Assembly (NCBI GenBank): GCA_030950375.1
Contig: JAUZRN010000050.1
Location: 1-46,539 of the forward strand
Source of the DNA: Rhodothermus sp.
Lineage (GTDB): Bacteria; Bacteroidota; Rhodothermia; Rhodothermales; Rhodothermaceae
DNA: 46,539 nucleotides
Reading direction: 5' to 3'
The translations under genes and the position numbers were made by a program. Positions 1,834 through 7,120 of the stretch are shown in pieces. Under the pieces are notes generated by a model, which was not told the DNA's origin, did no database searches, and saw nothing but the letters and a program-made list of their open reading frames with translations. The stretch's first letter is position 1. The number at the start of each line of letters is the position of its first letter.

Positions 1834-4800
1834 TCAACCGCAGCCACTCGAGCTACCGCAGTTCGGACAGACGTAGCAGGCACCCGAGCGCACCGTGATC
1901 GATCCACAGTTCGAGCATGCTGGCGCATCTTCCTGGTTCGGGAAAGAGGTGGCCGCTATCGAGGTAGCCTCCGAGGCAGGCGTCTTGCTTTTTTGCTGCG
2001 TCTGCAGGAAGGTTTCGATCGTCTGGCCCACCAGCGGCGTTACTTTACCGGTCGGTTGCACGTCGAACCCCAGCTCCAGTTGCTGCTCGTCGCGTGCCGG
2101 TCCCTTCTGCTTCACTTCGGCTTCCACGCCACCCCGCGGACTTTCCGATTGCTCCTCCTGGGGTCGTCCCAGGAATTTGAGTGACAGGTAACGGAAGATA
2201 TAGTCCATGATGGACTTGGCAATCGGAATCTGGGGATTGTTTGTAAAGCCGGCCGGTTCGAAGCGCATGTGGCTGAACTTGTTACACAGATCTTCCAACG
2301 GCACGCCGTACTGGAGCGCGATCGAAATGGCCGTCGCAAAGGCATCCATCAACCCCGAAATGGTCGATCCCTGCTTGGCCATGGTGATAAAGATCTCGCC
2401 CGGCATGCCGGTATCCGGGTAGAGGCCGATGTGCAGATACCCCTCGTGGCCAGCCACCGAGAACTTGTGCGTGATTGACGGCCGTTCGTCGGGCAGTCGC
2501 TTACGCACCGGCTTGTACACAACCTTTTCGACCACCTTTTCGATCACCTGGGGCTCGCCGGTCGCCATGCCATCGCCACTCGAATCAGCCTTCCGGTCTT
2601 CCTTGCGCGTCGAAAGCGGCTGGCTCCGCTTGGAGTTTTCCCGGTAGATGGCCAGCGCCTTCAGTCCCAGTTTCCAGCCCTGCAGGTAAGCATCCATGAT
2701 CTCCTCGACCGTCACATGCTCGGGCATGTTGACCGTCTTAGAGATCGCCCCACTGATGAAGGGCTGGCAGGCCGCCATCATCTTGATATGGCCCATGTAG
2801 TGAATGAACCGCTGTCCCTTGTAGGGCTTAAAGGCACAGTCGAACACCGGCAGATGCGCTTCCTTCAGATGCGGGGCCCCTTCAATCGTGTCATTTTCTT
2901 CAATGTAGGCGAGGATCTCTTTAATCTGTTCTTCGCTATAGCCCAGGCGGCGCAGGGCAATGGGCACCGTGTGGTTGACGATCTTAAACATGCCATCGCC
3001 CTTGCCTGCCAGCAGCTTGTACTTCACCAGCGCAATGTCCGGCTCAATGCCCGTAGTATCGCAATCCATCATAAAGCTGATGGTCCCCGTGGGCGCGAGT
3101 ACCGTCGCCTGCGCGTTGCGGTAGCCGTAGCGTTCACCCAGCGTGACCATGCGCGCCATGCTCTCACGGGCAGCCTCCTTCAGGTAGGCCGGGCAGCTCG
3201 GATGAATATCCTCGACGGCCGCCTGGTGCAGGCGCATCACTTCCAGCATGGGCTCCCGGTTTTTCTCGAAGCCCGGGAACGGCCCGATACGCTCAATGGC
3301 CGCGATCTCTGCGCTCCGGGCATAGGCCTCTGCATGCATGATGGCCGTAATGGCACCGGCTACCGCCCGCCCCTCATCGCTGTCGTAAGGCAGACCCATC
3401 GCCATCAGCATTGCCCCCAGGTTGGCGAAGCCCAGCCCCAGCGGCCGGTAGTCGTGGCTGTTTTGCGCGATCTTTTCCGAGGGATAGCCGGCATTGTCGA
3501 CCAGGATTTCCATGGCCGTGATGAAAATCCGGACGGCCGCCCGGAAGCGCTCGACGTCAAACGACCCATCCTCCCGCTGGAACTTGCGCAGGTTCAGCGA
3601 GGCCAGGTTGCACGCCGAGTTGTCGAGAAACATGTACTCGGAGCAGTTGTGGACGGCGATCCCGTTCGCCACGAAGTGATCCGTAACCGGCTCCGTCAGA
3701 TCGTAGACTGGTTCTTCGCCCAGAAGCTCAAGCGAGACAACCTGATCAACCAGCGTATCTTCGTAGGCCGAGACCGTAGCGTTCAGCGCGCGCAATGCTG
3801 CTGCCTTTGGACTCTCCGGAAGGAACCCGATTTCGCGCTCAAAGCGCACCCGACTCGACCGACTGATACGCAGACTATACATGGGCTGCACGCGATACTC
3901 CTGCACCCCCCCTTTACCGTCCGGCAGCAGCGCGCGATCGGCCAACCGCCGATTTTCATACAATTTGCTCTTGATGCCAAACCCCAGCAGCAACAGCTGA
4001 ACCTGCTTCAGTAATTCCTGAGAACTCGAATCCAGACTGATGTACTGGCTCTTTCTGCCGTAGTTGGCTACCGTACCATCAGCGGTGAACAGGCCGCGCA
4101 GCAGCGCAGCAACACTCTGTCGATCCAGCTGGAAAACCTCGTCAGTGAACCGTTTAGCCGCGGCCCCTTTGTCCAGTACAGCAAACTGCTTCAACACTGC
4201 CTGCACTGTCCGGGCACCGGTAGCAACGGCGACACTGGTAGGCCGCTCGGCGACCTGCACGCCTTTACGATGCGTCTGCCGGTCAAACTGATTGACCATC
4301 CGGGCCATTTTTTCGGCCACAGCCCTTTCCCGTCGATCCAGCGTCAGGATGGCCACTTCATGCGAAAGGCATCCGTCCCCCACCATCAGCCCGATATATT
4401 CGGCCACCTCCGGATCCAGATGCTTCCGGCCAAACCGCGGTGGCACTAGGCGCACGACGTCGTCACGGGTTAACTCAGCGGCCGGCACGTCGCCCCGGTT
4501 CTCTGTCCACACCCGATGATCGGCCGTCAGCTTCACCTCGTAGCCACACCGGGTGCGCAGCCGGTAGACCGGCTTGATACCCGTTTCGATCACCCGGGTG
4601 GTGCGGTGCAGGCGGCCGTCCAGCCCCACCACGCGTGGCGTTTCCCCTACCAGACTGTCGATGCGGCGTAGCCCGTCCTCGGTAGCCACCAGCGTATCGC
4701 CTGTCACACACGGATTACTCGAGTTGATCGGGCCGCTGCGCTTGCAGGTGTGCCACTTTTGAATGGTATCCTCGTATTGCAGCCCCGGGTCGCCACAGAT

Positions 4801-5898
4801 CCACGTGCCTTCGGCCACCTTGTAAAGCAGCTCGTAGGCATCGATTTCATCGATCACCTCCCCGGTCGTTACGGCCCGAAGCGGGTATTTCTTGCGGGCC
4901 AGCACAGCTTCCATGAAGTCGTCCGTGACGCGCACGGACTGATTCACGTTCTGAAAGGCGACCGAATTATAGGCCTCCCCGTTGAAGGATCCGTCGTAGC
5001 CCTGCTCAATCAGCGCCCAGGCTTTCTTTTCCTCTTTGGCCTTGGCCGTCACAAACTCCATGACGTCGGGGTGCCAGACCTTCAGCGTCTGCATGATGGC
5101 AGCCCGGCGCGTCTTGCCCCCGGACTTGATCGTGGCGCCCGTCGCATCCTGCACCCGCATGAAGGAGACCGGTCCCGAAGGCCGCCCACCACCGGAAAGT
5201 TTCTCCTTCGTGGAGCGCAGTTTGGACCAGTCGGCGCCCACGCCCGAGCCAAACTTGAACAGGCGGGCGCTCTCGGCCATGAGCTGCCAGATGTCGTCGA
5301 TCGAATCCTCTACGGAAATGATAAAACAGGCCGAGGCCTGCGGCCGCTCGTACGGATCGACGGGCACCACCCGCTGCTTTTCAAAATCCCAGCCGTAAAT
5401 GGTCTTGCCCCCCGTATCGCGCACCCCGTACTGATGATACAGCCCCACATTGAACCAGACCGGCGAATTGAAGGCCCCGTACTGGTGCAGGCAAAGCCAG
5501 GTCAGCTCATCGTAGAAGCGTTCGGCATCTTCGGGCGTTGCGAAATACCCCTGCGCCTTGCCCCAGTCGGTGATAGTGCGGGTCACCCGGTGAATGAGTT
5601 GCTTCAGGCTATACTCGCGCTTGCCCTGCCGGGGATCCCCATTGCCAGCTGCCAGATCGCCATAGAAGTACTTGGACGCAACCACGTTCGTGGCAAGCTG
5701 GCTCCACGTGGAGGGGAACTCCACGTCTTTCTGTTCAAAAACCGCTTCGCCTTTGCTGTTGTAAATGGCAGCCGTCCGGCGTTCCCAGGTGACCGTGTCA
5801 AACGGATGCACGCCTTCCTGCGAAAACACACGCGTGATGCGTAGACCACGACGGAGCACCTGTGCGTCTGCCGATGACTTGCGGGAGGACTTTGCCAT
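1834..5898 (-). CDS. nrdJ: Adenosylcobalamin-dependent (class II) ribonucleotide reductase with intein
   Basis: A 1354-residue precursor. It reduces ribonucleotides to deoxyribonucleotides with adenosylcobalamin as radical source, supplying dNTPs for replication. After removal of a 355-residue intein (residues 397-751) the mature protein is about 999 residues, normal for long class II enzymes. The exteins join as SSNP/CSEYMFLDN, giving the active-site NxCxE pattern in which Cys752 corresponds to the thiyl-radical cysteine and Glu754 to the catalytic acid. The motif ATVLAPTGTISFMMDCD and a C-terminal Cys-rich tail (CSNCG, CPNCG, ending SGCG) match the family; the tail carries the redox and zinc cysteines. 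The ATG at 5898 starts a Ser/Lys-rich leader before conserved sequence. I see no cobalamin riboswitch upstream. A strong terminator lies downstream, so the gene is monocistronic. Confidence 0.95.
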   Translation of the reverse strand: MAKSSRKSSADAQVLRRGLRITRVFSQEGVHPFDTVTWERRTAAIYNSKGEAVFEQKDVEFPSTWSQLATNVVASKYFYGDLAAGNGDPRQGKREYSLKQLIHRVTRTITDWGKAQGYFATPEDAERFYDELTWLCLHQYGAFNSPVWFNVGLYHQYGVRDTGGKTIYGWDFEKQRVVPVDPYERPQASACFIISVEDSIDDIWQLMAESARLFKFGSGVGADWSKLRSTKEKLSGGGRPSGPVSFMRVQDATGATIKSGGKTRRAAIMQTLKVWHPDVMEFVTAKAKEEKKAWALIEQGYDGSFNGEAYNSVAFQNVNQSVRVTDDFMEAVLARKKYPLRAVTTGEVIDEIDAYELLYKVAEGTWICGDPGLQYEDTIQKWHTCKRSGPINSSNPCVTGDTLVATEDGLRRIDSLVGETPRVVGLDGRLHRTTRVIETGIKPVYRLRTRCGYEVKLTADHRVWTENRGDVPAAELTRDDVVRLVPPRFGRKHLDPEVAEYIGLMVGDGCLSHEVAILTLDRRERAVAEKMARMVNQFDRQTHRKGVQVAERPTSVAVATGARTVQAVLKQFAVLDKGAAAKRFTDEVFQLDRQSVAALLRGLFTADGTVANYGRKSQYISLDSSSQELLKQVQLLLLGFGIKSKLYENRRLADRALLPDGKGGVQEYRVQPMYSLRISRSSRVRFEREIGFLPESPKAAALRALNATVSAYEDTLVDQVVSLELLGEEPVYDLTEPVTDHFVANGIAVHNCSEYMFLDNSACNLASLNLRKFQREDGSFDVERFRAAVRIFITAMEILVDNAGYPSEKIAQNSHDYRPLGLGFANLGAMLMAMGLPYDSDEGRAVAGAITAIMHAEAYARSAEIAAIERIGPFPGFEKNREPMLEVMRLHQAAVEDIHPSCPAYLKEAARESMARMVTLGERYGYRNAQATVLAPTGTISFMMDCDTTGIEPDIALVKYKLLAGKGDGMFKIVNHTVPIALRRLGYSEEQIKEILAYIEENDTIEGAPHLKEAHLPVFDCAFKPYKGQRFIHYMGHIKMMAACQPFISGAISKTVNMPEHVTVEEIMDAYLQGWKLGLKALAIYRENSKRSQPLSTRKEDRKADSSGDGMATGEPQVIEKVVEKVVYKPVRKRLPDERPSITHKFSVAGHEGYLHIGLYPDTGMPGEIFITMAKQGSTISGLMDAFATAISIALQYGVPLEDLCNKFSHMRFEPAGFTNNPQIPIAKSIMDYIFRYLSLKFLGRPQEEQSESPRGGVEAEVKQKGPARDEQQLELGFDVQPTGKVTPLVGQTIETFLQTQQKSKTPASEATSIAATSFPNQEDAPACSNCGSITVRSGACYVCPNCGSSSGCG
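3646..4710 (-). other. Intein with LAGLIDADG homing endonuclease inside nrdJ
   Basis: In-frame protein-splicing element, precursor residues 397-751. It begins with Cys397 in CVTGDTLVATEDG (block A). Block B has the TADH motif (LTADHRVWT). Two LAGLIDADG-like helices, YIGLMVGDG and LLRGLFTADG, mark a homing endonuclease. It ends FVANGIAVHN (blocks F/G, with penultimate His and terminal Asn) followed by Cys+1. All splicing residues are present, so it should be active. Insertion is immediately before the catalytic thiyl-radical cysteine, so that cysteine is also the +1 splicing nucleophile. Inteins are common in ribonucleotide reductases (established knowledge). Confidence 0.95.
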
Positions 5899-6013: not shown

Positions 6014-6080
6014 GCCAAGGCCCGTTTTGCAAGGACGAGTTAATCACAACTTTTCCACATCAGCCCAAGCGACTGAGGAC

Positions 6081-6113
6081 ATAACAGCCATTAGATGATC
6101 TAATAGCCGTTAT
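6081..6113. promoter_or_regulatory. 33-bp near-perfect palindrome, operator-like
   Basis: The left arm ATAACAGCCATTAGAT (6081-6096) and right arm ATCTAATAGCCGTTAT (6098-6113) are inverted repeats around a single G at 6097, with only two mismatched pairs out of 16. The inner ATTAGAT/ATCTAAT and outer ATAAC/GTTAT arms match perfectly. This size and symmetry fit a dimeric or tetrameric repressor operator. It sits about 180 bp upstream of nrdJ. Confidence 0.5.
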
Positions 6114-6188
6114 GCACCAAAACCTTCTAAAGCTGTGAAGAAACAAGCGGAAAGGTTAGTAAAAGGAAAAGCTATGCCGCATAACGGC
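6106..6188. repeat. Long-range inverted repeat, possible structured RNA
   Basis: GCCGTTATGC (6106-6115) is the exact reverse complement of GCATAACGGC (6179-6188). Inside the 63-nt loop AACCTT (6121-6126) can pair with AAGGTT (6152-6157). The left arm overlaps the 6081-6113 palindrome, so alternative folds compete. Nothing else identifies an RNA gene. Confidence 0.35.
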
Positions 6189-6195
6189 AATCAAA

Positions 6196-6229
6196 TGAAA
6201 AAACCCTGACACCCACCCGCGTGTCAGGG
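6196..6229 (-). terminator. Rho-independent terminator of the acidic protein gene
   Basis: CCCTGACAC (6204-6212) pairs with GTGTCAGGG (6221-6229) with an 8-nt loop. On the minus strand it is followed by a run of six T (6203-6198). It lies 28 bp past the stop codon of the minus-strand acidic protein gene, which supports that strand as the coding one. Confidence 0.85.
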
Positions 6230-6256: not shown

Positions 6257-6508
6257 TCAAAACGCTTCCTCGTCGTCAAAATCGTCTTCAAAGTCAAAAT
6301 CTTCCTCGTCGAAATCTTCAAAGTCGTCAAAATCCTCCTCTTCAAAATCATCCTCAAAGTCGTCGAAGTCCTCCTCAAAATCTTCTTCCTCAAAGTCCTC
6401 AAAGTCTTCCTCGTCGAAATCTTCTTCTTCAAACTCATCAAAGTCCTCTTCGTACGCCCAGGGAGACTGCAACGGCAGCCGATCCGGCGCAAATGCAGCG
6501 CTACGCAT
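6257..6508 (-). CDS. Extremely acidic D/E/F low-complexity protein
   Basis: An 83-residue protein that I do not recognise. About 19 ordinary residues (MRSAAFAPDRLPLQSPWAY) are followed by a 64-residue tail made of 47 Asp/Glu, 16 Phe and one Ala. Phe recurs every 2 to 6 residues, mostly after Asp in an (E/D)nDF pattern. The tail should be intrinsically disordered, carry a charge near -47 and present regularly spaced aromatic stickers. I chose the ATG at 6508 because a promoter motif at 6598-6569 predicts transcription starting near 6561, downstream of the other in-frame ATG codons (6913, 6646, 6619), which would also run into the neighbouring gene. A terminator follows directly. Function unknown; DNA mimicry, cation binding or condensate formation are only guesses. 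There is no signal peptide, so it should be cytoplasmic. Confidence 0.65.
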   Translation of the reverse strand: MRSAAFAPDRLPLQSPWAYEEDFDEFEEEDFDEEDFEDFEEEDFEEDFDDFEDDFEEEDFDDFEDFDEEDFDFEDDFDDEEAF

Positions 6509-6568: not shown

Positions 6569-6598
6569 CAAAAATACGCAACACCTGCATGAAAGCAA
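6569..6598 (-). promoter_or_regulatory. Bacteroidota-type promoter of the acidic protein gene
   Basis: On the minus strand TTG (6598-6596) is separated by 19 nt from TATTTTTG (6576-6569), an exact match to TAnnTTTG. Transcription should begin near 6561, leaving a leader of about 53 nt before the ATG at 6508. Confidence 0.6.
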
Positions 6599-6712: not shown

Positions 6713-7120
6713 ATGTACGACACGGACCGTAGTGCGTATCCGCACCCTGACGAATTCAAAGTGAAACGGCCGGAATACACGCAGTTGGAAGACGGATACT
6801 ATCGGGCTACCATAGAGATCGCACCCTTTAAAGTCATAGGAGAAAGTCGGACCAAGGCGGGTGCCCGGCGGGTGGCCCTGTACCGGGCCGCTTTGACCTA
6901 CCGTTCCTATCACCCGTCCTACCGGGTGGAGAATCCCTATCCGGACGAGTTTGTCGATCAGGAAGGCACACGCTGGCGCCGGCTTCCTCCCTCACAGCGT
7001 GAACTGGGCGATTATGCCTTTGTCGGACCCGATGGCGACGAAGATTACGCTACCATCGAACAGATGCTGATGTGGGATATCCGGCCGGTCTCTACCCTGA
7101 AAGTTGAAGAAGCCTCCTGA
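6713..7120 (+). CDS. Hypothetical protein, conserved-looking, function unknown
   Basis: A 135-residue protein with no family I recognise. It is rich in Tyr, Arg, Pro and acidic residues and has no signal peptide or membrane segment, so it is probably cytoplasmic. A central part (about residues 24-65: YYRATIEIAPFKVIGESRTKAGARRVALYRAAL, shown here only as its pattern of alternating strand then basic helix) could be a small alpha-beta fold. A second Tyr/Pro-rich segment follows, then an acidic stretch GPDGDEDY near residue 105. AGGA about 6 nt before the ATG at 6713 may be a weak ribosome binding site. It diverges from the acidic protein gene and is closed by a strong terminator, so it is transcribed alone. 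Confidence 0.65.
   Translation: MYDTDRSAYPHPDEFKVKRPEYTQLEDGYYRATIEIAPFKVIGESRTKAGARRVALYRAALTYRSYHPSYRVENPYPDEFVDQEGTRWRRLPPSQRELGDYAFVGPDGDEDYATIEQMLMWDIRPVSTLKVEEAS

Follow-up and report, generated by a model that had tools for sequence, protein, structure and literature searches.

Acidic chains that carry aromatic stickers are well studied as pieces of larger proteins. In acidic activation-type chains, the acids keep the stickers exposed. Eukaryotic acidic activation domains and the acidic segments of histone chaperones share this architecture, with acids set among aromatic or leucine stickers in a disordered chain, and clusters of acidic and hydrophobic residues are established as a binding grammar of activation domains (PMC10550315). 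In bacteria, the acidic region of the RNA polymerase delta subunit (83 residues, net charge -47) displaces RNA or DNA from the polymerase when present in excess (PMC7749165). A much shorter acidic element is the tip of E. coli SSB, DFDDDIPF, in which Phe2 and Phe8 lie six residues apart and touch two hot spots (PMC10143822).

What, then, would such a chain do as an entire protein? The window analysed here spans positions 1 to 46,539 of contig JAUZRN010000050.1 from Rhodothermus sp. (assembly GCA_030950375.1). On its minus strand lies a coding sequence of 83 amino acids followed by TGA (6257..6508), assigned from its translation and from third-position selection. The eukaryotic acidic segments belong to larger proteins, whereas in this bacterial case acids and stickers make up nearly the entire protein. 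An N-terminal segment of 19 residues (MRSAAFAPDRLPLQSPWAY; 6452..6508, minus strand), whose core LP...A(Y/F)E is seen again in other families, leads into an acidic tail of 64 residues (6260..6451, minus strand) made up of 23 Asp, 24 Glu, 16 Phe and a single Ala. The tail ends in FDDEEAF and the C-terminal Phe is invariant across the genus. Successive Phe residues are separated by 3, 5, 5, 3, 5, 4, 3, 4, 5, 3, 3, 5, 2, 4 and 6 positions, an evenness that 2000 shuffles of this tail never reached. Translation thus bears out the composition given in the earlier note, which counted 47 acidic residues and 16 Phe at intervals of 2 to 6. The net charge is approximately -46. AlphaFold2, run with a shallow alignment of seven sequences, returned no tertiary structure (mean pLDDT 58, pTM 0.11) and the chain is predicted to be intrinsically disordered. 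Comparison with Pfam, NCBIfam and PDB sequences gave no matches even at permissive E-values, in searches whose power is limited by low-complexity bias correction, and Rfam gave one sub-threshold match near the locus.

The signals around the coding sequence are those of a separate transcription unit. A Bacteroidota-type promoter is read on the minus strand at 6598-6569, comprising a possible -33 element TTG (6596..6598), a spacer of 19 nt and the -7 element TATTTTTG (TAnnTTTG; 6569..6576), which appears on the forward strand as CAAAAATA and lies some 60 nt ahead of the ATG. A terminator-like hairpin followed by a T run (6204..6229, minus strand) separates the gene from nrdJ. Throughout the genus (seven genomes) the start is shared, an exact TATTTTTG begins 67-72 nt 5' of the ATG and a terminator hairpin stands 3' of the gene. 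The earlier note had remarked that the gene looks expressed; the conservation of promoter, start, frame and terminator throughout the genus, together with selection on the encoded residues, strengthens that view at the level of sequence. The locus is best explained as a genuine, monocistronic gene.

Selection is most clearly seen in comparisons between species. The gene is present upstream of nrdJ in all seven genomes of the genus. The earlier note had proposed that free variation of tail length and frame among strains would mark an unselected repeat; instead, the tails span 61-68 residues, their length differences are whole codons and the frame is always kept. In the closest pair (G000 and G006), the tails differ at 15 nucleotides, every one of them at codon position 3; ten codons are altered without effect on the residue and five exchange Asp and Glu. 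In a second pair (G002 and G005), 22 of 24 differences are at position 3 and the remaining two change Phe to Tyr. Random mutation of the same codons (2000 simulations) predicts a mean of 9.4 out-of-class residue changes for the first pair and 14.4 for the second, with simulated minima of 3 and 7, respectively; none was observed in either. Two out-of-class columns between G005 and G006 look like alignment shifts at an indel. These patterns strongly indicate that selection holds "acidic" at the acidic positions and "aromatic" at the sticker positions, with Asp and Glu hardly distinguished, and that this is almost certainly a selected, protein-coding gene. Conservation of the Phe spacing, which the earlier note had suggested checking, is exact only in near relatives (G000 and G006 are identical and G001 is alike); elsewhere the spacing rule is kept but the register is not.

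How far does the gene extend beyond the genus? The seven genus members are essentially all that such searches retrieve when run with profiles, and profile and single-sequence searches of 113-114 genomes of the order and 394 of the phylum found nothing convincing outside it. This boundary is likely set by bias correction acting on the low-complexity tails, and a profile built from a mixed alignment (A2) found again only some of the sequences in that alignment, along with their near relatives. No relatives were found by a related-locus search of genome and viral contigs or by tblastn against phages. One match (G108, E=1.6e-4) was rejected as an acidic stretch within a reading frame of 339 amino acids that is DivIVA-like by eye. 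Reading the conserved neighbourhood, 5' of nrdJ and beside the divergent geneY, revealed genes matched in position and composition in six further families: f2 (G021, G031), f6 (G011, G024), f7 (G012), f8 (G025), f9 (G014, G026, G035) and f12 (G036, G058, G060, G062). An acidic gene is thereby present in 20 of the 50 genomes in the NrdJ tree. That tree was built on the part of the protein ahead of the intein, an earlier tree having been distorted by inteins. Presence clusters on it, requiring seven changes against 15.9 for shuffled labels, with no shuffle among 500 as low.

The members share more than their location. Several families have a short N-terminal motif (LPIAPVAYE, MPLAYE, MPVAYE, TPLAYE or LPLAF), with LPLQxxWAYEE as the genus counterpart. 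Lys, Arg and His are missing from the tails of all 19 full-length members, the G024 protein being cut at a contig edge. Hydrophobic residues are more evenly spaced than in shuffles in most full-length members, and Leu often takes the place of Phe in f8, f9 and f12. The last residue is hydrophobic in all 20 (Phe in 16, Tyr in two and, in f2, Ile or Val in two). A pattern of similar style to the tail, [DE]3-[LF]-[DE]3-[LF]-[DE]2, has no match in 29 of 30 genomes of the order, and in the 30th it occurs only within the matching gene, which speaks against chance. Absence elsewhere in a genome was assessed with this one acidic/leucine pattern and with bias-prone profile searches. Common descent across families is likely, with the caution that low-complexity tails can converge; the case for homology is drawn from shared position, composition and the short N-terminal motif, independent alignment being not significant. 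Many genomes of the order have no acidic gene at this locus, which suggests that the microprotein is dispensable or replaceable.

The acidic genes adjoin nrdJ, geneY or both. In the window, nrdJ (1834..5898, minus strand) encodes a class II ribonucleotide reductase with an intein and lies downstream of the microprotein gene in the same direction. The intein is of the LAGLIDADG type, and intein-bearing and intein-free NrdJ proteins across the order split a naive NrdJ tree. On the other side lies the divergent geneY (6713..7120, plus strand; 135 aa), an order-wide neighbour found in 58 of 60 genomes; it has no Pfam or NCBIfam matches, and a dsRBD-like core is predicted from weak Foldseek matches (best E 0.015). 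In 19 of the 20 genomes the acidic gene is upstream of and co-directional with nrdJ, and it remains beside nrdJ in G001 and G024, where geneY is elsewhere. The exception is G025, in which it sits beside geneY some 14 kb from nrdJ, carries a strong hairpin and T-rich tail of its own and faces a gene that, read by eye, we take to encode a type II 3-dehydroquinate dehydratase. As nrdJ and geneY also stay neighbours in many genomes that have no acidic gene, linkage leaves the function unsettled.

A further conserved feature of this region is the heptamer CCGTTAT/ATAACGG, which occurs 131 times in 40 nrdJ-upstream regions (L012-L085) against 2.6 expected from mononucleotide shuffling. It is often arranged as direct pairs 23 bp apart, together with a DnaA-box-like TGTGGATAA or TGTGGAAAA, and lies in the window at 6051-6059, 6107-6113 and 6181-6187. 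The cluster looks like an order-wide nrdJ regulatory module, and the heptamer does not resemble the NrdR box. In the literature we found neither an nrdJ-linked small acidic protein nor a bacterial family of such proteins.

We tentatively propose, at somewhat less than even confidence, that the microprotein is a disordered polyanion that competes with nucleic acid for basic surfaces. In such a mechanism the acids would keep the hydrophobic and aromatic stickers of a free-standing chain exposed to solvent, and the chain would bind a nucleic-acid-binding protein, in a multivalent and fuzzy manner, at the basic patch where DNA or RNA is normally held. The chain would act as a nucleic-acid competitor or chaperone, much as the Bacillus delta subunit uses its acidic tail to displace DNA and RNA. 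Specificity might come from the two ends, with a short motif at the N-terminus and a hydrophobic residue at the C-terminus, and candidate partners include the adjacent dsRBD-like geneY protein, RNA polymerase and replication proteins. The free exchange of Asp and Glu argues for a charge-driven, non-folded interface. The earlier note had named condensate formation, nucleic-acid mimicry and cation buffering as candidate roles; the acidic chains that have been characterised point rather towards competition with nucleic acid. The AlphaFold2 model, from its alignment of seven sequences, shows none of the folded scaffold with rows of acids typical of DNA mimics.

Delta (RpoE) of the Firmicutes is close to the microprotein in being a disordered acidic chain of similar length and charge; by composition the microprotein has a delta-type long acidic region, its disorder being taken from a low-confidence AlphaFold2 model. 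However, delta attaches to RNA polymerase through a folded domain at its N-terminus, HARE-HTH, whereas the microprotein has only its N-terminal segment of 19 residues. HARE-HTH (PF05066) was not found in the window's genome by a search whose control matched in Bacillus subtilis, nor did the microprotein match it in Pfam. Identity with the delta subunit was rejected on these grounds.

An unlikely alternative is that the chain is a ligand or decoy of the SSB-tip type, its free C-terminal Phe and the Phe six residues upstream docking into the pockets of SSB partners such as RecO, ExoI, PriA and primase. The tip encoded in the window, DFDDEEAF, does resemble that of E. coli SSB: both have acidic residues running up to a free C-terminal Phe, the final two hydrophobic residues are six positions apart in 6/7 genus members and Phe is the final residue in 16/20 members overall. 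The SSB of the same genome ends in DDDLPF. However, members of the family end in EAF, ETF, EEF, DDF, DDY and similar, those of f2 end in Ile or Val, and the Ile/Leu-Pro that precedes the last Phe of SSB is missing from every one. Tips of this kind are also likely to arise from composition alone, and docking by two residues, as in SSB, would leave 14 of the 16 stickers unexplained. The microprotein has no OB-fold (PF00436) match in Pfam, and the one SSB match in the genome lies elsewhere.

The same extreme charge, free exchange of Asp and Glu and variable register could equally belong to a bulk polyanion with no dedicated partner, serving to buffer cations or polyamines or as a scaffold that coacervates with basic proteins. 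We consider this improbable, since a pure buffer would not need conserved stickers and spacing, an N-terminal motif or a hydrophobic C-terminus, and a single-copy gene of 83 residues would add little to the ion balance.

Position beside a ribonucleotide reductase gene invites comparison with Sml1 and Hug1 of yeast and Spd1 of fission yeast, as small disordered inhibitors of ribonucleotide reductase exist in yeasts (PMC4245953). The microprotein is likewise small and predicted to be disordered, and a role as a regulator of NrdJ would accord with its co-directional placement in 19/20 genomes and with its staying beside nrdJ in the two genomes where geneY has moved. However, it has no demonstrated sequence relation to the yeast proteins, and NrdJ belongs to class II and lacks an R2 subunit. 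The distant gene of G025, the many nrdJ genes that have no acidic partner and the separate promoter and terminator also count against such a role, and the synteny of the region is conserved in any case. We regard it as distinctly unlikely.

Still less probable, to a marked degree, is a leader peptide that controls nrdJ. Runs of acidic residues destabilise ribosomes, an effect exploited by MgtL (PMC11282234), and the reading frame does precede nrdJ. However, terminators lie 3' of it throughout the genus, nrdJ has its own conserved cluster of upstream motifs and conserved Phe/Tyr would be unnecessary for an effect on the ribosome. As the G025 gene lies apart from nrdJ and has its own terminator, the microprotein gene is probably not an nrdJ leader. 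A chance reading frame or unselected repeat, to which the low-complexity GAN/TTY codons might point, is scarcely credible given the conserved gene signals, the between-species substitution pattern, which excludes an unselected repeat, and the same position-3 pattern in look-alikes from other lineages.

These look-alikes came from a pattern scan of genome contigs, in which the matches listed include at least two other groups of stand-alone short proteins of acids and Phe. Two archaeal contigs among them, labelled Caldarchaeum and Pelearchaeum, encode E/F proteins of 39-40 aa that end in EEEEEF (L155, 5920-6043; L197, 2049-2169), in matching gene order downstream of a moeA-like gene; 15 of the 17 nucleotide differences over the compared tail are at codon position 3. 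Also among the matches listed, Algoriphagus and its relatives have a D/E/F-rich family of 62-69 aa (L159, L160, L167, L172, L174, L182, L210, L213, L217, L220 and L227), with neighbours shared in the loci read and, for one pair, 18 of 19 differences at position 3. Both groups resemble the Rhodothermales microprotein in standing alone, in being short, in combining acids with Phe and in differing mostly at position 3, but their gene neighbourhoods are different, and the likeness may reflect convergence on one kind of solution.

The matches listed also include small proteins of other layouts. Lachnospiraceae-type loci (L152, L158, L162, L177, L207 and others) encode proteins in which a probable transmembrane helix precedes an acidic-Phe tail (..YLEDFDDDFDDFDDDFFED..), a layout that recurs in these bacteria. 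At L179, L201, L219 and L226 lie proteins of 65-66 aa whose N-terminus is basic and whose other end is acidic-Phe (..DDEDEFELPIDEIDEFEDDFDEFEDDDF); in the two loci read they adjoin an scpB-like gene.

The findings suggest that the Rhodothermales microprotein is a binding chain that is negatively charged and free-standing, a type of chain so far not described as a protein in its own right. A broader class of stand-alone "acidic-exposure" microproteins, combining acids with evenly spaced aromatic or leucine stickers and competing in trans with nucleic acid in both bacteria and thermophilic archaea, is conceivable but doubtful; its members would have been missed by homology searches because their sequences are of low complexity. 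Genes of this sort almost entirely escape profile searches and have to be traced, as here, through neighbourhood, composition and substitution pattern. In the Rhodothermales an acidic-sticker chain is kept as an entire protein that has diverged across families and has few other residues, and it is a naturally occurring minimal system for testing how function is encoded in charge and sticker spacing.
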